From Candidatus Fermentibacteraceae bacterium (GTDB lineage: Bacteria; Fermentibacterota; Fermentibacteria; Fermentibacterales; JCC-6), in NCBI GenBank assembly GCA_016744855.1, contig JADGDO010000016.1, positions 1 to 64,000 of the forward strand: a stretch of 64,000 nt of DNA, given 5' to 3'. This document shows positions 23,148-30,494 of the stretch, piece after piece. Position 1 is the first letter of the stretch. Each line of letters starts with the position of its first letter. Under the pieces are notes generated by a model, which was not told the DNA's origin, searched no databases, and saw nothing but the letters and a program-made list of their open reading frames with translations. Made by a program: the position numbers and the translations under genes.

Positions 23148-23810
23148 TTATTCTGAAAGCGAACTGCTGCCGTGGCGTTTCAGATAGATTGTAACTGTGA
23201 GTACCCAGGCAAGAACAGTAAAAAAGACAGACCATTCCAGAAGAGGAGCCAACCAGATTTCCGGACGGACATCAGAAGACACAGCGAGAGGCTTTGCTGC
23301 ATGGTGCGCAGACTCTGAGATAAACACAAAGATGAACGATGTAAATGCTGTGAGTATGCCCGGTATGGAAACATATTTGCGAAACTTGGTTGCCCTCGAA
23401 AAAAGAACATAACCGGAGAAAATTACAGACAAAATCATGGCTGATCTAAAGAAGGTCATTGCAACTGGTACGTGAACATGCATGTTGTTCATTGGAAAAA
23501 CACCGACTAAGGCACCCGATAACCCTGTTACAATTCCCATAACCAAGAACAAGCGGCCGAAGATTCCGCCGATAAATCGCCCAAGATCTGCAAGAAAAAC
23601 AGCAAGAAAAATGCAACCGACAATTAGACCTATGTTGAAAACCGGAGCAAATCGAGATACACCGATCTGCCCCAGTTCAGAGATATAGTGATTTAGAGCT
23701 GAATAACTCTCCCCAGTATTCCCTCTGTAAAACATTGCAGTAAACAAGGAAGAAGAAATAATAAGTATGGAGCCGCAAAAACCGCTTGAGATCAGCAGTT
23801 TGAGTTTCAT
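23148..23810 (-). CDS. DUF998-family membrane protein
   Basis: A 220-residue protein with six predicted membrane segments. The family features NHYISELGQIGVSRFAPVFNIGLIVG, LVGVFPMNNMHVHVPVA and the conserved His pair in SESAHHAAKP fit DUF998. No function is established for the family. Its ATG overlaps the endonuclease stop as TAATG, so it is translationally coupled to the secreted nuclease gene. Confidence 0.85.
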   Translation of the reverse strand: MKLKLLISSGFCGSILIISSSLFTAMFYRGNTGESYSALNHYISELGQIGVSRFAPVFNIGLIVGCIFLAVFLADLGRFIGGIFGRLFLVMGIVTGLSGALVGVFPMNNMHVHVPVAMTFFRSAMILSVIFSGYVLFSRATKFRKYVSIPGILTAFTSFIFVFISESAHHAAKPLAVSSDVRPEIWLAPLLEWSVFFTVLAWVLTVTIYLKRHGSSSLSE

Positions 23811-24910
23811 TACAACCCGGTTCGAACCATTCTAAGACTACTGGTTTCAGTATCAGTGGTCAAAACTGCAAAATAGATTCCAGGAGAAAGTTGGTTTCCG
23901 TTTTCATCGGTTCCGTTCCAGGAAACTTGGTTAGCTTCGGAAGTACAGGAGACATCTTCCAGCAGCGAACAAATCATTCGACCGCTGGTGTCATAGAGAC
24001 GCAAAGAACCATTCGTGCCCATAGGAACAGTGTAGGAAAAACTGGTAAAAGAAGAGAACGGGTTGGGAGAACTCTGAACACAAACTGCTGTTAACTGAGT
24101 TTCGTCTTCTATTCCGGAGATCGGATCGTAGATATACTGTACATATTCAGGGTGATCAATAAAAGGATTTCTGTTATCCTGAATTAGATAAACAGCATCA
24201 TTGCGTTCGGTCTCCTTGGTGCTTACCGGATCATTCTCGTGCCATTCAATAAGCATATCCACAGCCCAATCTTCAAGGTCAGCACCATCGGCCATAGCAC
24301 TTCCTGCCCAACCGTTGTCTTCACCCTTGTAACGGGTAGCCATATAGAAATAGGTACGGGCAAAGTCTCCCTTGTAACCGTCTATAGGCTCGAAAGCTGT
24401 TCCTGAATAACCGGGTGTAACAGAAGAGCCAAGTCTGCTGCCGTTCTGTGATACCCAGGTTGTGGAACCTACTTCAGCATAAGGGTAGTTGCTTCTGCGA
24501 TTATTTACGTAAATATCGCTTGGTACAATATGAAAGAGGTCGGTGTTCATAGGTGCATTATCATTGAACCAGCTCTTGGGCCAGGAGTGTTCTCTATTGT
24601 ATCCCTCTCCTTCACCGCTTGCACTACCACTAAAGTCATCTCCCAAGGTATACAGGTACGGAGGTGTACCACCGGGAACATCAGAATACATATCCCAAAC
24701 TTTGTTACCGTATCGGTCGTCAGTAGTGTAAAATGCCGTTTTGATTGCATTGTAACTTATTGAGGTATGGTTATCAATAATATTATGAAGCGCCCACTGA
24801 AGAGATTCTCCGGAAAGCCCCTGCGCTGAGTCGTAGTATCCTGCAGGAATACCAGCTAGGGAAACAACGGGGAGAAGAACAATCATCAATGAGTAAAATC
24901 TTTTTGTCAT
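23810..24910 (-). CDS. secreted endonuclease I family protein with sorting tail
   Basis: A 366-residue exported nuclease. A signal peptide (MTKRFYSLMIVLLPVVSLAG) is followed by an EndA/endonuclease I domain: YNREHSWPKSWF with the HNH-like catalytic His, TDLFHIVPSDIYVNNRRSNYPY, GDFARTYFYMATRY and NPFIDHPEYVQYIY. It should degrade extracellular DNA, probably with a divalent metal. The C-terminal 85 residues (SSPNPFSSFTSFSY..., LRLYDTSGRMI..., GIYFAVLTTD...) are a type IX-like sorting domain. The ATG at 24910 has GAGAGG six bases upstream; the frame is open 18 bases further up but without SD. Confidence 0.93.
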   Translation of the reverse strand: MTKRFYSLMIVLLPVVSLAGIPAGYYDSAQGLSGESLQWALHNIIDNHTSISYNAIKTAFYTTDDRYGNKVWDMYSDVPGGTPPYLYTLGDDFSGSASGEGEGYNREHSWPKSWFNDNAPMNTDLFHIVPSDIYVNNRRSNYPYAEVGSTTWVSQNGSRLGSSVTPGYSGTAFEPIDGYKGDFARTYFYMATRYKGEDNGWAGSAMADGADLEDWAVDMLIEWHENDPVSTKETERNDAVYLIQDNRNPFIDHPEYVQYIYDPISGIEDETQLTAVCVQSSPNPFSSFTSFSYTVPMGTNGSLRLYDTSGRMICSLLEDVSCTSEANQVSWNGTDENGNQLSPGIYFAVLTTDTETSSLRMVRTGL

Positions 24911-25051
24911 GTGAGGCCTCTCGTTCATGTATTGAAATCGAATCTACATTGCAATAATAGCACAGATTCTCAAAATTAGAAAGTCATAGGAAGCTGCTTC
25001 AAGAGAGTCCGTGTTTCACCAAAGTGAGTTGGGTGTTGTAACAGAAGAGGG

Positions 25052-27331
25052 TCAGCGCAGAGAGTAGTCCGTAATTATCGGTGAGTTTGAATCAGAAGCA
25101 GCCAGAACTCGGAGGAGACACTCTCTTAGTGTGTTAAGACTCAGTGGCTTACGAAGTAGAGCCGAACAACCTTCGGCATGGCAAGAATCAATATCCCCCG
25201 TTTTCAATTGAGAAGAAAGGACCAGTAAACGAGTTCGTTGCCCCACCAGACTGTCCTGTCTGATTAACTGGGCCATGACCAGTCCAGTCATTTCATCAGA
25301 ATCACCATCAAGAATCGAAACTTGTACAGGTATTTTGTTTTCAACTGCCTCTCTGAGTTTCAAGAGAGCTTCGGTTTGATTAGCAACTGCAGTTACCCGA
25401 CAGCCAAGGGTTTCAAGCATTTTCTTATAAACAGATAAGGCCTCATGTTTCCTTTCCATAACCAGTACATGCGTTCCCTCCAGACTTATCCCGGTTATTT
25501 CTTCATAGTCGAGAGTTTTTTCCAGTGGTATGCTCAGCCAAGCAACAGTACCGGAATCAGCATTCGTCTGAAGATGAAACTCCCCCCCGGCTGCCTGAAC
25601 AAATTTCCGACAGGATGTCATACCTTTACTATCCCAGTGCTCATTTTCATCATCAAACTGTTTGCTCTGCCGCTTGTACTGGAACTGGGATGCTGGAAAA
25701 CTAACAGAAAATTTCACTTGCATAGTAGCATCTGTTGAAAATTCATAAGAAGCACATATTTCAATTCGATCATTGAATGACCTTCGAATTGCATAATCCA
25801 GAATAAAGTGAAGAACCGATTCTATTCCGAGAACCGGACCTAAGAAAAGAGCAGGGAGAGAAGAATCAATGCTGATATCAATTTGTGTTTCAGACCCCAT
25901 GCTTCTGTGATAAGTCATAAGACGCTTCATAAGAAGCTTCTCAATAAGAAATTCACACTTTTCAAGAGAAAAATCTCCTGACATCCCCATATTATCCTGT
26001 AGAGCATGAACGGAAGCAGTAAGGTTCTCACAATGATTTTGAAGAGTTCTCAAAATTTTCTGACTGTCCTCCGACTCGGTCATTTCAGAAAGGACATCTA
26101 CGAGGCCGGCAATTCCACTAAGCGCTGCAATTTTACCGGAAAGTAGTTTCCCGTGACGGGGTCTTCTGGTGTGGTGTCCATGAAGTGGCTTACCATTGCT
26201 TGCTTTAAGAGCTGCCAACTCACGTCTAAGCCTTTCTTTCTCAAACGGTAATGGTTCAGGATGCTCAATAAACGCTTCCAAAAGTAGGTCTTCCGAGTTC
26301 AAATGAATGGGAATCACTGTCTTGAGAACAGGAATTTGATGCCCATCTTTGTGAAGAACAAAACGCTCTGACTGATCAATAGACTGGTTAAGGTCGAGAA
26401 TCGGACACATATCAACAAGAGCCGGGCAAAATACAGAATGGCAAATCCGGCCGCTAAGCTCTCCTAACTTCCATCCGGTAACATCACACGCTTTCGAATT
26501 GATTTGCCTGATTTTTCTATTTCGATCGATAATCACAACACCTACCGGAAGATCTTCAAGAATTTTCCGGGTTGATGAAAGCGTTCTCTTTAAAGTTTCA
26601 GCGGTTCTAACTTCAGTCGTTATATCCCTGTTCCCTCCACGATAGCCTTTCAACTTACCTTCCTCATCAAAAATCGGGATTCCGCTTGTTGAGAAAACTA
26701 CATCGGCACCGTCTTTAGTAATTGCAACATTCTCAAGACTGGAAAAACTCTCAGTTCTTAAGGAAATGCGACTGAAGCTGGAGACAATTTTTTTTGCTTC
26801 TGATGGAACCATAAAGTCAAAAGGAGTTTTCCCAAAGAACTCTTCAGGCCTGTATCCTGTTGACTTGTAAGCAGAGGGAGAAACGTATGTAAAGATTCCG
26901 GAGGGATCAACCTCCCATAGCCAGTCAAATCCGGAAATGGAAATCTCTCTGTACCTCTCGAGAGATTTTGTCAGGAGATTTCTTTCAATAATTCGGCGGG
27001 AAACATTTCGGATGATCGCAATATATCCGATGAGATTGCCCTCTTGATCAACCCTAGGAGAAAGGGACAACTCAACAGGAACACGTTCTTTGTCCATTGT
27101 AAGCAGATGAACTTCGAGAAGAGAAGAGGTTTGCATCTCTTTCACTGCTTCGCGATCTTCAGGAGTGGCAACAAATTCTAGGAAAAGGGTCTCTGCAATA
27201 TTCTTATAGGATGGGACCTGAACCATGCGAAGAAATGACGGGTTTGCATACTCAAAAATAAAATCCTGATTCAGCGCAGCTACGCCTTCATTCAACTGCT
27301 GAAAAAGAGTCAAGTCACTGTGGCTATTCAA
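25052..27331 (-). CDS. PAS-PAS-PAS / degenerate histidine kinase / receiver protein
   Basis: A 759-residue soluble sensor protein. Three PAS domains occupy about residues 5-120, 125-240 and 260-370, with the usual GYIAIIRNVSRR, GYRGGNRDITTE and VTGWKLGELSGR boundaries. Residues 390-625 have the layout of a histidine kinase core but lack the catalytic residues: no H-E-x-x-P box (LSGIAGLVDVLSEM instead), no N-box Asn (ILDYAIRRS), no DxGxG; the last strand GTVAWLSIPL remains. Residues 635-745 are a receiver domain with a possible phosphoacceptor Asp (ILDGDSDEMTG) and the conserved Lys (LRKPL), but without the usual N-terminal acidic pair. TTG start. It is the last gene of the DUF4097 operon and a likely pseudokinase. 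Confidence 0.87.
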   Translation of the reverse strand: MNSHSDLTLFQQLNEGVAALNQDFIFEYANPSFLRMVQVPSYKNIAETLFLEFVATPEDREAVKEMQTSSLLEVHLLTMDKERVPVELSLSPRVDQEGNLIGYIAIIRNVSRRIIERNLLTKSLERYREISISGFDWLWEVDPSGIFTYVSPSAYKSTGYRPEEFFGKTPFDFMVPSEAKKIVSSFSRISLRTESFSSLENVAITKDGADVVFSTSGIPIFDEEGKLKGYRGGNRDITTEVRTAETLKRTLSSTRKILEDLPVGVVIIDRNRKIRQINSKACDVTGWKLGELSGRICHSVFCPALVDMCPILDLNQSIDQSERFVLHKDGHQIPVLKTVIPIHLNSEDLLLEAFIEHPEPLPFEKERLRRELAALKASNGKPLHGHHTRRPRHGKLLSGKIAALSGIAGLVDVLSEMTESEDSQKILRTLQNHCENLTASVHALQDNMGMSGDFSLEKCEFLIEKLLMKRLMTYHRSMGSETQIDISIDSSLPALFLGPVLGIESVLHFILDYAIRRSFNDRIEICASYEFSTDATMQVKFSVSFPASQFQYKRQSKQFDDENEHWDSKGMTSCRKFVQAAGGEFHLQTNADSGTVAWLSIPLEKTLDYEEITGISLEGTHVLVMERKHEALSVYKKMLETLGCRVTAVANQTEALLKLREAVENKIPVQVSILDGDSDEMTGLVMAQLIRQDSLVGQRTRLLVLSSQLKTGDIDSCHAEGCSALLRKPLSLNTLRECLLRVLAASDSNSPIITDYSLR

Positions 27332-27349
27332 TATGTCAATTCTTTCCTG

Positions 27350-28123
27350 TCAGAGAACACCGATCCTTCTAATTGCAATATCTCCATTGGCTGTTACAAT
27401 GCTGGCCATACTGTCCCCGTCAATGAAAAAGCTTTCATCTATCTCAAGTCCGTCAACGCTGATATCACCATTGCCTGTGGAAATCTCGAAACCTGTATTC
27501 ACGGGGATATTTACAAGAATGTCACCATTAGAAGATTCAATCTTCATCAAGTCATTAAGCACAATCAGAGAAGCAGAAATATCACCATTGGATGTGGAAA
27601 TTTCTAATGAACCTTTCTGCTCTGACAATTCAACCATAATATCACCATTAGAACTCACTAGTCCATTTGCGGAAATTGCTGAAATCTGCATGTCACCATT
27701 TGATGCAAAGACCTCTACAAAAACATCACCGTCTATAAAAGTGTCACCATTCTGAGTGTTGTTTACAACGATGTAATCAGAATTATATGGAATTCTGACC
27801 GCGAAATCGACTGAACAACCGAAGATTTTATCAGGATAATCGACAAGAACCGAAAGATTCTCACCCATTTTTTCAAAGTGGATATCCAGATCCTCTGGTA
27901 CTCCTACGGATGAGTCTCCATATATCAGTGTTTCTATCTGGACGAAATCGGATTCCCATTCAGTAACTTCCAAATCTCCGTTGGTATTCTGAAAATTTAT
28001 CTCGCTACCCTTTGTGAGTTCATAGTCTTCCGTTCTTACTTCAACGAGATCCTGATTAACCCTGATAACTACACATGAGGCGATAAGGCATGCAGCGGAT
28101 AAGACAAACATCTCCTGTTTCAT
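27350..28123 (-). CDS. DUF4097-like repeat lipoprotein
   Basis: A 257-residue lipoprotein with a signal peptide and lipobox IASC (Cys17). The mature part is a series of about 20-residue turns ending in NGD(I/M/L): NTNGDLEV, NTQNGDTF, SNGDMQIS, SSNGDIMV, TSNGDISA, SSNGDILV, GNGDISV, TANGDIAI. This is the DUF4097-type right-handed beta-helix-like pattern. It sits in the same operon as a cytoplasmic DUF4097 protein with MGGGI turns. The gap to the DUF2089 gene is 8 bp and to the PAS protein 18 bp. Function is unknown; an envelope polymer or sensor is inferred from context. Confidence 0.83.
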   Translation of the reverse strand: MKQEMFVLSAACLIASCVVIRVNQDLVEVRTEDYELTKGSEINFQNTNGDLEVTEWESDFVQIETLIYGDSSVGVPEDLDIHFEKMGENLSVLVDYPDKIFGCSVDFAVRIPYNSDYIVVNNTQNGDTFIDGDVFVEVFASNGDMQISAISANGLVSSNGDIMVELSEQKGSLEISTSNGDISASLIVLNDLMKIESSNGDILVNIPVNTGFEISTGNGDISVDGLEIDESFFIDGDSMASIVTANGDIAIRRIGVL

Positions 28124-28131
28124 TTCTTCTC

Positions 28132-28497
28132 CTAAGAATTTTCTGTCAGAGAACCTAAAGCATCATCAACACTGATTTCTCCTCTGTGAAGTCGCTCCAG
28201 TACACTGATCGAGCTATTGCTAGTCTCAGCAGGCTTCTCCAGTGCATTAAACATTTCCTCTATCCGGGTCCTTGCAGTCGGGTAGGAAACCCCGAGCATG
28301 CGTTGAACGGCCTTGAGGTTTCCCCTGGCAAGAAGAAATAGTTCGAGAAGGCCTCTGTTATCAGGATCCAACGAACACAATGGACACATGGAGAAATCAC
28401 CTGATACCTCTGTTTTACAGTCAGAGCATACATATTTTACCGGATTTAGAACACCATTGCATGAAGGACACCTTGATGGTGCCACTGCTTTATTCAT
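28132..28497 (-). CDS. DUF2089 zinc-ribbon/helix-turn-helix regulator
   Basis: A 121-residue protein. The N-terminus has two Cys pairs (RCPSCNG, YVCSDCKTE) plus a third (MCPLC), forming a zinc ribbon. Then FLLARGNLKAVQRMLGVSYPTARTRIEEMFNAL is the DUF2089 helix-turn-helix with its characteristic GNLK and SYPTxR. The C-terminal VLERLHRGEISVDDALGSL is a short helical pair of the SHOCT-like type, and the same pattern starts the neighbouring DUF4097 protein. The ATG at 28497 has AAGGGGA upstream and overlaps that gene's stop by 8 bp. It probably regulates this operon. Confidence 0.88.
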   Translation of the reverse strand: MNKAVAPSRCPSCNGVLNPVKYVCSDCKTEVSGDFSMCPLCSLDPDNRGLLELFLLARGNLKAVQRMLGVSYPTARTRIEEMFNALEKPAETSNSSISVLERLHRGEISVDDALGSLTENS

Positions 28498-29398
28498 CTG
28501 CTTCCCCTTCAATCTTAATTCCTCCACCCATGGATGTAACTGCGAGCTTCGACGGTTCATCCTCTTCTCCATACAATACTGTTACTTTCGACTTTGCATG
28601 TCCATGTCCGGACTCGGAAATAATCTCAGGGTTGTTCCCACCGACATTTATTGACCCACCCAGAGTTGTTGCACTAACAAGAACGGGAACATCATCAACC
28701 AGGTGAATAGAGATACCACCGCCCATAGTTTTGGCTTTTGAATCTCCATGCCACGATTTGTCGAGAGAAATATTCAGACCTCCGCCCATGGTCTTGATAG
28801 AGAATCGATCTCCGGGTTTGAAAATCTCTATGCCTCCGCCCATGGTCTTTAGCTCAACAGGAACATTCACATTGCTGGAACTAATGCCTCCACCTTTTGA
28901 AAATACATTAACAGAAGCCAGTGAATCGGGAACTTCCACACTGAGTTTACCACTTCTCAAAACAAGAATTCTCTTGTTATCCCTATTGCCTGACTCAATA
29001 CATGCTTCCTCATTGTCGAGTGAGGCTCTGAGAGTAGAGTCTTCGCTTCTGGAAAGGAAAACAGAGATATTTTCTCCTCTGTCTACGTCACCATGAATAA
29101 CAAGATCTCTGCCCTCTTCGATTTCCTCTGAAATAGACTTAACCTTTTCAAAATCAACGCTTTCATAAGCATCAAAAGATTTTCTGCCTTTGAAAACATC
29201 ACCCATTGTGGCTTGAATCATAGGTCCTATTTCATTGAGCATAGATCTCGTATGATTGGTTCTTTTTCTCCTGGGTGCTCTGCCAAGCTCCGGTCCGCGA
29301 CTCGAAGAACCAAGTGCTTCTAGAAGCTTAACGCCCTCAGCAGCAGTAATAGTACCATCTGCTACCATCTCAAGTACTCTTTCTTTCTCATTAGCCAT
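28490..29398 (-). CDS. SHOCT-like/DUF4097 repeat protein
   Basis: A 302-residue protein without a signal peptide, so probably cytoplasmic. Residues 1-30 (ERVLEMVADGTITAAEGVKLLEALG) form the SHOCT-like helical module found at the start of YvlB-type proteins. A basic linker (RAPRRKRTNHTR) follows. From about residue 70 a beta-helix-like DUF4097 domain carries repeated turns with GGGI: SKGGGISS, TMGGGIEI, TMGGGLNI, TMGGGISI, TLGGSINV, SMGGGIKI. It is the first gene of the operon driven by the promoter at 29440-29468. Confidence 0.87.
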   Translation of the reverse strand: MANEKERVLEMVADGTITAAEGVKLLEALGSSSRGPELGRAPRRKRTNHTRSMLNEIGPMIQATMGDVFKGRKSFDAYESVDFEKVKSISEEIEEGRDLVIHGDVDRGENISVFLSRSEDSTLRASLDNEEACIESGNRDNKRILVLRSGKLSVEVPDSLASVNVFSKGGGISSSNVNVPVELKTMGGGIEIFKPGDRFSIKTMGGGLNISLDKSWHGDSKAKTMGGGISIHLVDDVPVLVSATTLGGSINVGGNNPEIISESGHGHAKSKVTVLYGEEDEPSKLAVTSMGGGIKIEGEADE

Positions 29399-29439
29399 TT
29401 CAACACCTTCTTTCTTGTTCCCAATCTTGACCTAGAACA

Positions 29440-29468
29440 ATGATAATACCAGCTTACCATTTTGTCAA
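29440..29468 (-). promoter_or_regulatory. promoter of the DUF4097/PAS operon
   Basis: On the minus strand TTGACA (29463-29468) and TATCAT (29440-29445) are exactly 17 bp apart, about 40 bp before the ATG at 29398. Confidence 0.8.
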
Positions 29469-29499: not shown

Positions 29500-30147
29500 C
29501 TATTTTGTGTTCAATGTTCTATCGAGCTTATCAACGTGAGCGTAAATTTCCTCCATCTCAGAGAGAAGACGGCTTTTCAGCTCGTTGATTCCCACTTCGA
29601 GATCCTGTGTTGCCTGACTAAATCTGTTAATGAACTGTGCATTCTCTGCTTCCATAAAAAGAGAAAGCAGTCTGTCCGGAGTAAGTGGATTATTTCTGGC
29701 GTCTCCTCTGATCTTATACGTTCCACCGGAGGTGCTGTACGGTCTGCGGGTTCCTGGAGGTATCTCCACTCGAAGGAACGGTTTCTTTCCTTCGCAATTC
29801 TCCACAATAACGAATACTTCAATAGGAGGAACACAACTTCCGGCTTTGCCAAGAATGGAAAGTTTTGCACGGTCTCCTATTTCACAGCCGACGATCTCAG
29901 TCATTTGTCTTCCCAGGCTATCGTTCGTTTCCTTCACACCGAGAAGAATGGTTCCGCCTGTTTCAGTGTTTGCAAACGAAACAACATCATCGGAGGAGAG
30001 ACCTCCGACGGATTCTTTAAAATCAAGGGTGCGGCTTTCCTGACTTCCCAGCAATTCTTCTGCCTTCTCAGAAAGCCCTGCATATTCTGTTATCATCTGA
30101 AGCTGTGTCAGTGCAGTCTCTCCATCCATGGGTTTGTCTCTTCCCAT
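29500..30147 (-). CDS. AlbA_2 (Schlafen-like) domain protein
   Basis: A 215-residue protein. Residues 35-165 match the AlbA_2 putative nucleic-acid-binding domain: LGSQESRTLDFKESVGGLSSDDVVSFANTETGGTILLGVKE (start, in two family blocks), PFLRVEIPPGTRRPYSTSGGTYKIRGDARNNPLTPDRLLSLF (end). A C-terminal coiled coil (NRFSQATQDLEVGINELKSRLLSEMEEIYAHVDKLD) follows. AlbA_2 proteins often act as regulators or RNases in stress or toxin contexts; which applies here is unknown. The gene overlaps the repeat-protein gene by 40 bp (or 22 bp if it starts at 30129, where GGGAAG is a better-placed SD). Confidence 0.85.
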   Translation of the reverse strand: MGRDKPMDGETALTQLQMITEYAGLSEKAEELLGSQESRTLDFKESVGGLSSDDVVSFANTETGGTILLGVKETNDSLGRQMTEIVGCEIGDRAKLSILGKAGSCVPPIEVFVIVENCEGKKPFLRVEIPPGTRRPYSTSGGTYKIRGDARNNPLTPDRLLSLFMEAENAQFINRFSQATQDLEVGINELKSRLLSEMEEIYAHVDKLDRTLNTK

Positions 30148-30446
30148 TCCGCTTGATACTCGTATTCACAAAAATACACTTTCAGGTCTGCCTGGTAGGC
30201 GTACTCGACATAATGTATTGATACATCAGCCTGATACTCGTAATCACAGAAGAACCATAGACAATCGTCGTCGTCTGCCTGGTACTCATACTCTGTCGCA
30301 AAAACAGAAGCATCAGCCTGGTATTCGTACTCAGTTACAAACACATTGATATCAGCCTGGTACTCGTACTCGGCTATGAAAACTGATCCTGCAGAAACCG
30401 TTCCTGCAAGTAGAAGAAAAACTGCAATAAACAAAAATCTGTGCAT
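30108..30446 (-). CDS. exported EYEYQAD-repeat protein (septoil-knot-like)
   Basis: A 112-residue secreted protein. A signal peptide (MHRFLFIAVFLLLAGTVSA) is followed by six near-identical 13-residue units of the form x-V-F-hydrophobic-x-E-Y-E-Y-Q-A-D-x, at about residues 22-100, with a three-residue insertion (DDC) after the third. The Y-x-Y-Q-A-D consensus matches the Pfam family that I recall as the 7(1) septoil knot domain, predicted to form one of the most complex protein knots; I am fairly but not fully sure of that name. The ATG at 30446 was chosen for AGGAGGTG just upstream. A promoter lies at 30466-30494. It overlaps the AlbA_2 gene, with which it forms an operon. Confidence 0.85.
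   Translation of the reverse strand: MHRFLFIAVFLLLAGTVSAGSVFIAEYEYQADINVFVTEYEYQADASVFATEYEYQADDDDCLWFFCDYEYQADVSIHYVEYAYQADLKVYFCEYEYQAEWEETNPWMERLH
30153..30377 (-). repeat. coding direct repeats of about 39 bp
   Basis: Six imperfect copies of a 39-bp unit around a GAGTAYSAGGCTGA-type core encode the EYEYQAD units. The copies differ mostly at third positions, so this is an old protein repeat, not a recent tandem expansion and not a CRISPR array. Confidence 0.75.
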
Positions 30447-30465
30447 TTCACACCTCCTACTCGGC

Positions 30466-30494
30466 ATGATACTTTGTTTTTACTTCATGCACAA
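30466..30494 (-). promoter_or_regulatory. promoter of the EYEYQAD-repeat gene
   Basis: On the minus strand TTGTGC (30489-30494) and TATCAT (30466-30471) are 17 bp apart, with the SD following directly. Confidence 0.6.

Follow-up and report, generated by a model that had tools for sequence, protein, structure and literature searches.

Four adjacent genes on the minus strand of a Candidatus Sabulitectum genome (Fermentibacteraceae, Fermentibacterota), here called g1 to g4, form a real and conserved operon, and this operon is a variant of a system hitherto known only as a prediction. Its first two genes, encoding a SHOCT-like/Toastrack protein and a DUF2089 protein, are a known core, which has been extended to four genes in this lineage. 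The new element described here is a candidate 15-bp operator at g1-g2 promoters which, judging by its sequence and placement, probably switches the pair. Our best explanation is that the four genes make up one transcription unit, in which a widespread two-gene switch has been enlarged in this lineage; taken jointly, all its parts together, we give this explanation slightly less than an even chance.

Table 1. The operon and its promoter region, in positions of the window (the whole 64,000-nucleotide stretch of DNA that was analysed)
Feature	Position	Strand	Remarks
Sigma-70-type promoter, TTGACA-N17-TATCAT	29440..29468	-	11/12 matches; kept in 10 genus members
Candidate operator, 15 bp, TTGACAAAATGGTAA	29454..29468	-	overlaps -35 box; 12/14 consensus positions, 4/7 palindrome pairs
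g1, SHOCT-like/Toastrack	29398-28490	-	302 aa
g2, DUF2089 zinc ribbon/HTH	28132..28497	-	121 aa, ATG at 28497
g3, Toastrack (DUF4097) lipoprotein	28123-27350	-	257 aa; PF13349
g4, three PAS domains, degenerate kinase core and receiver	27331-25052	-	759 aa, TTG start

A sequence-only reading of this DNA had placed a consensus promoter ahead of four tightly packed genes, and the match, the conservation and the short spacing all bear it out. The hexamers (TTGACA at 29468-29463, TATCAT at 29445-29440, spacer N17) make the top-scoring of 13 sites in a promoter scan of 6.5 kb, a scan that by itself performs about as chance would (13 found against 10.9 expected). The promoter is taken to be real because TTGACA and TTATCAT are kept in 10 of 10 genus members in an alignment of the upstream regions while the flanking bases drift. 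The first 8 nt of g2 are also the last 8 of g1 (the mechanical open reading frame of g2 begins too early), g2 and g3 are separated by 8 nt and g3 and g4 by 18 nt, and no terminator-like site was found on the minus strand inside the g1-g4 unit. The same reading had said what would speak against it, namely relatives carrying the genes scattered, or terminators between them; both were looked for and neither was found, gene order being conserved in related genomes and internal terminators lacking.

The block DUF6150-SLFN-g1-g2-g3-g4-Endonuclease I is kept across the genus wherever contigs reach, with the exceptions that g3 is missing in one genome (L039/L102) and that g4 is split in another, by an apparent frameshift (G002; L107 8147-10472). 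Beyond the genus, g1-g2 is still present in the family and the order, with g3 found only in UBA6080 (L062/L133). Outside the genus mostly just the g1-g2 pair remains, but it does so over many phyla, the order g1 then g2 recurring in loci labelled Krumholzibacteriota, Eisenbacteria, Muiribacterium, Spirochaetaceae, Chloroflexi, Dormibacteria and Actinomycetota. In a JCC-6 genome (L053/L103) frameshifts run throughout the block, perhaps as sequencing errors. The neighbours are constant as well: a Schlafen/AlbA_2 gene and a DUF6150 gene with EYEYQAD repeats (29500-30467, overlapping by about 40 nt) always precede the operon, both in the genus and in UBA6080, and a secreted Endonuclease I with a C-terminal sorting-type domain (23810-24928) always lies downstream of g4. 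The endonuclease was considered as a fifth operon gene and set aside, as it shows a conserved -10-like region of its own and does not obviously belong to the unit.

The N-terminus of g1 matches the SHOCT-like family PF22746 (E 4e-9; a bihelical module at about residues 2-31), and a beta-helix with a repeated "TMGGGI" follows this module. Pfam does not reach DUF4097 with the window copy of g1 but calls it for 8 relatives out of 18; searched by Foldseek, the AlphaFold2 model (mean pLDDT 82.8) finds solved Toastrack structures (4qrk best, E 1e-8; also 3pet and 4opw). Together, the model and the Pfam matches of the relatives indicate that g1 has the right-handed beta-helix Toastrack fold. No signal peptide or membrane segment is evident in g1, which is predicted to be a cytoplasmic partner or sensor; a candidate membrane-binding amphipathic helix (49-76) was dropped for its low hydrophobic moments (maximum about 0.26). 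The g2 protein has the domains PF09862 (E 1e-16) and PF22747 (E 1e-7), a zinc ribbon plus a helix-turn-helix, and is predicted to be a transcription regulator. Direct sequence matches to the PDB yielded nothing useful for g1 or g2. In the window copy Pfam does not assign the C-terminal stretch of g2 to PF22746, and the g2 of a close relative reaches E 0.002, below the cut-off. Compared by hhalign, the module at the N-terminus of g1 proves homologous to that at the C-terminus of g2 (95.4%, E 2e-8), so that this DUF2089 protein, by profile comparison, bears a SHOCT-like C-terminus. A g1-g2 contact is proposed because the two modules are homologous, a likeness which suggests that the proteins meet through them.

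DUF2089 proteins of the g2 subclass have a third pair of cysteines (C38, C41) beyond the four of the zinc ribbon, invariant in the alignment and absent from a second DUF2089 gene, type B, that occurs in nearly all genomes of the family (G000 contig C52:132863-132997, L032; L034-L056). The type B gene is accompanied by genes for a small membrane protein, a small SHOCT-like protein and a TGS-type GTPase, and adjoins GlmS/GlmM and a nucleotide-sugar pyrophosphorylase; its promoter, which differs from that of g1, is strongly conserved.

The two later genes supply an envelope protein and what appears to be a PAS-domain accessory. The g3 protein matches PF13349 with E 1e-8, above the Pfam cut-off and thus placing it in the Toastrack fold, and by inspection it has the signal peptide and lipobox (LIASC) of a lipoprotein, with the cysteine kept in relatives. 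Profile comparison finds g1 and g3 mutually homologous (91.7%, E 8e-7). The window copy of g3 is about 20 residues longer than all its relatives, equal to one more turn of the beta-helix. In g4, a soluble protein, three PAS domains precede a degenerate histidine-kinase core and a degenerate receiver; Pfam finds the three PAS domains and the receiver, and HATPase only marginally (E 0.03). The third PAS domain (26380-26470) contains a conserved Cys-rich motif, ICHS.FCP....CPI, lost in one relative, which is possibly a metal or redox site.

The label "pseudokinase" given to g4 from its sequence proved apt. The motif columns of the H-box read S/D-K-I-A-A-L, and the H-box histidine and the N-box asparagine are missing from eight of eight homologues; on these residues g4 falls short of a catalytic histidine kinase, and we infer a conserved pseudokinase accessory. 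That it is still an active hybrid kinase, working through unusual residues, is very improbable. Its profile does match kinase structures (RetS is among the best solved ones), the receiver lysine is retained, and the phosphoacceptor aspartate is present in six of the eight homologues, the window copy having both residues; but the two catalytic motifs are lost throughout, and the receiver aspartate has become asparagine in the other two homologues. The second acidic residue of the receiver is also lost in several of the eight. (An AlphaFold2 model of the C-terminal half of g4 is poor, with a mean pLDDT of 47.6, and was left out of the argument.) A different reading would make only g1-g2, perhaps with g3, the functional unit, g4 being an independent PAS protein that simply stands downstream in this genus. 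This is possible, if doubtful: g4 is confined to the genus, it diverges faster (41-51% identity against 71-82% for g2), and all g1-g2 loci outside the genus lack it, generic PAS proteins excepted. Against it, every genus member with enough contig has g4, even the one without g3 (L039/L102), the spacing is short and no terminator intervenes. We therefore keep g4 in the unit in the preferred explanation, where it most likely would add a cytoplasmic cue through protein contact, its kinase core being presumably incapable of autophosphorylation.

The candidate operator, TTGmCAAnTTGkmAA, is a near-palindrome of 15 bp that overlaps the -35 box at g1 promoters. It precedes g1-g2 in Fermentibacterota and in several other phyla, and is rare elsewhere. 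The exact 15-mer TTGACAAWTTGTAAA, searched for in 30 genomes of the family, is present no more than once in any of them; in sister genera it is found about once per genome. Five of its seven occurrences are at this operon, and in two genomes it lies at an exported Toastrack gene instead. A relative has the element in the palindromic form TTGACAAATTGTAAA; in sister genera the bases that follow TTGACA are also conserved, as a near-palindrome like TTGACAAAWTTRTAAA, and distant loci show TTGACAAATTGGCAA, TTGCCAATTTGGCAA, TTGACAAAATGTAAA and similar sequences ahead of g1. In Sabulitectum itself the right half of the element is degenerate (3-4 of 7 palindrome pairs). A looser pattern searched in this genome gives no enrichment over a reversed control (32 vs 37 sites). 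Three wider definitions were tried and rejected: as an element of DUF2089 genes in general it fails, most other subclasses being without it; type B promoters are conserved yet do not contain it; and a version built from the -10 side (ATTATCAT) has its other matches in the genus at unrelated genes.

The best site in 31 of 41 loci outside Fermentibacterota contains TTGMCA. With the consensus fixed after part of the test set had been seen and with overlapping test data, and with counts taken over related species rather than independent observations, at least 5 of the 8 non-hexamer positions match at 30 of the 31 element sites but at 4.7% of the 191 TTGMCA sites elsewhere in these loci; the figures for at least 7 are 16 of 31 and 0 of 191. 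A motif-free test, subject to the same relatedness, finds at least 5 of 7 palindrome pairs in 20 of 31 sites and in 9 of 517 controls. For Fermentibacterota, again counting related species, the mean is 5.48 at the operon (21/33 with at least 6) and 3.19 at promoter-like intergenic TTGMCA sites (0/32 with at least 6). A later hold-out search added a single clean positive of the same subclass (L340, 14/14); L324 matched in part (12/14) and L349 was a miss.

Beyond the operon, similar elements may connect g3-like exported proteins with the regulator. Two Aegiribacteria genomes carry the exact 15-mer a second time, ahead of a stand-alone exported Toastrack gene whose orthologues occur across the family. 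In the Aegiribacteria and Sabulitectum orthologues TTGACA lies some 66 nt ahead of the start and 10-14 of the 14 consensus positions match, the exceptions being a Sabulitectum copy with TTCGACA and another copy without such a site in the stretch examined; the orthologue of the present genome (contig C41, L306) has TTGACAATATAGAAA. The weight of this candidate link rests on position and orthology, because the looser pattern is not enriched in this genome. Exporters also appear. A Dormibacteria-type genome has a second copy of the element before an ABC ATPase and permease, and an MFS_3 exporter comes after g1-g2 in Chloroflexi-labelled and Dormibacteria-type loci, although exporters downstream of g1-g2 could be separate units.

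The mechanism we propose is autorepression. The g2 protein would bind the near-palindrome over the -35 box and repress the operon's strong promoter, while g1, in the cytoplasm, would control g2 by pairing its N-terminal SHOCT-like module with the C-terminal one of g2. A disturbance of the envelope would alter this contact, and release would yield more g1-g2 together with an envelope output, which here would be g3 and the second exported Toastrack protein encoded elsewhere in the genome, and in other lineages MFS or ABC exporters. No transmembrane partner is found in the operon, though envelope sensing by g1 is proposed. The element takes in the -35 hexamer of a near-consensus promoter, where a classical repressor would be expected to bind, and autorepression is the most likely scheme. 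The signalling layout that had been suggested for these genes gains support from the conserved order, the homologous SHOCT-like modules and the element common to the unlinked exported Toastrack gene.

Two other readings of the element have to be weighed against repression by g2. It might reflect mere preference for a strong promoter (TTGACA with an A/T-rich spacer), the operon being constitutive and DUF2089 acting elsewhere or on protein partners. Six of the 14 consensus positions are indeed those of the -35 hexamer, and the palindrome is weak in Sabulitectum; but the spacer positions are not common to other promoter-like TTGMCA sites of the same genomes, GC-rich lineages hold TTGGCAA rather than an A/T run, and the exact 15-mer is nearly unique in each genome, all of which makes this reading unlikely. 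The sign may also be the reverse, g2 (or g1 and g2 jointly) acting as an activator, with the element recruiting polymerase when envelope stress turns g2 on. An element that adjoins or overlaps the -35 region is where class II activators are also found, and Lia-type systems are activated (PMC10269926). Near-consensus hexamers with a spacer of 16-17 nt in the aligned relatives, however, normally need no activator, and here the -35 hexamer lies inside the element itself, so an activator is improbable in our view.

The sequence-only reading had taken the operon for an undescribed system, and this stands only in part. Operons of DUF2089 with Toastrack have been noted already and predicted to be Lia-like transducers of membrane signals (PMC11237479), and the contexts are the same, a DUF2089 protein with zinc ribbon, helix-turn-helix and SHOCT-like C-terminus beside a SHOCT-like/Toastrack protein; the part that holds is that the main text of that paper gives no DNA site, no PAS pseudokinase and no four-gene form with a lipoprotein. 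The partners stressed there are LiaI-LiaF-TM, PspC or B-box proteins and an operon-linked sigma factor, whereas none of these domains is found in the four genes; they are known in some variants only, so that their absence is compatible with membership. Toastrack is held there to be intracellular, as far as the paper's main text goes, whereas g3 is an exported lipoprotein. LiaX, in the LiaFSR system of enterococci, likewise has a helical N-terminal part and a C-terminal Toastrack, the latter inhibiting the stress-signalling system (PMC10269926). Both g1 and g3 match it weakly in NCBIfam (NF038025; 23.9 and 22.2 bits against a cut-off of 350), but the regulator here is DUF2089 rather than LiaR, and LiaF and LiaS are not in the operon. 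The g3 lipoprotein also matches part of the LiaG profile (NF049997; 30.3 bits against a cut-off of 285). For g4 the closest parallel, by profile match, is with the RetS-type pseudo- or atypical hybrid kinases, the analogy being a kinase core used for contact and not catalysis; g4 differs in being soluble, with three PAS domains.

The broadest picture, which we offer tentatively and regard as somewhat unlikely, is of a DUF2089 subclass with its own conserved operator that would control an envelope response in many phyla, with Toastrack proteins on both sides of the membrane, a cytoplasmic, SHOCT-tethered one as partner of the switch and exported ones as output, to which the PAS pseudokinase would add a further input in Sabulitectum; it would amount to a one-component, kinase-free counterpart of Lia. 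The candidate operator is the most useful new feature, since it would make testable a prediction whose source (PMC11237479) names no DNA target in its main text. Both DUF2089 and Toastrack proteins occur widely, and the element may serve as a handle for reading their regulons. Through this candidate site the regulator is already connected with an unlinked exported Toastrack gene here and with an ABC exporter in another lineage.
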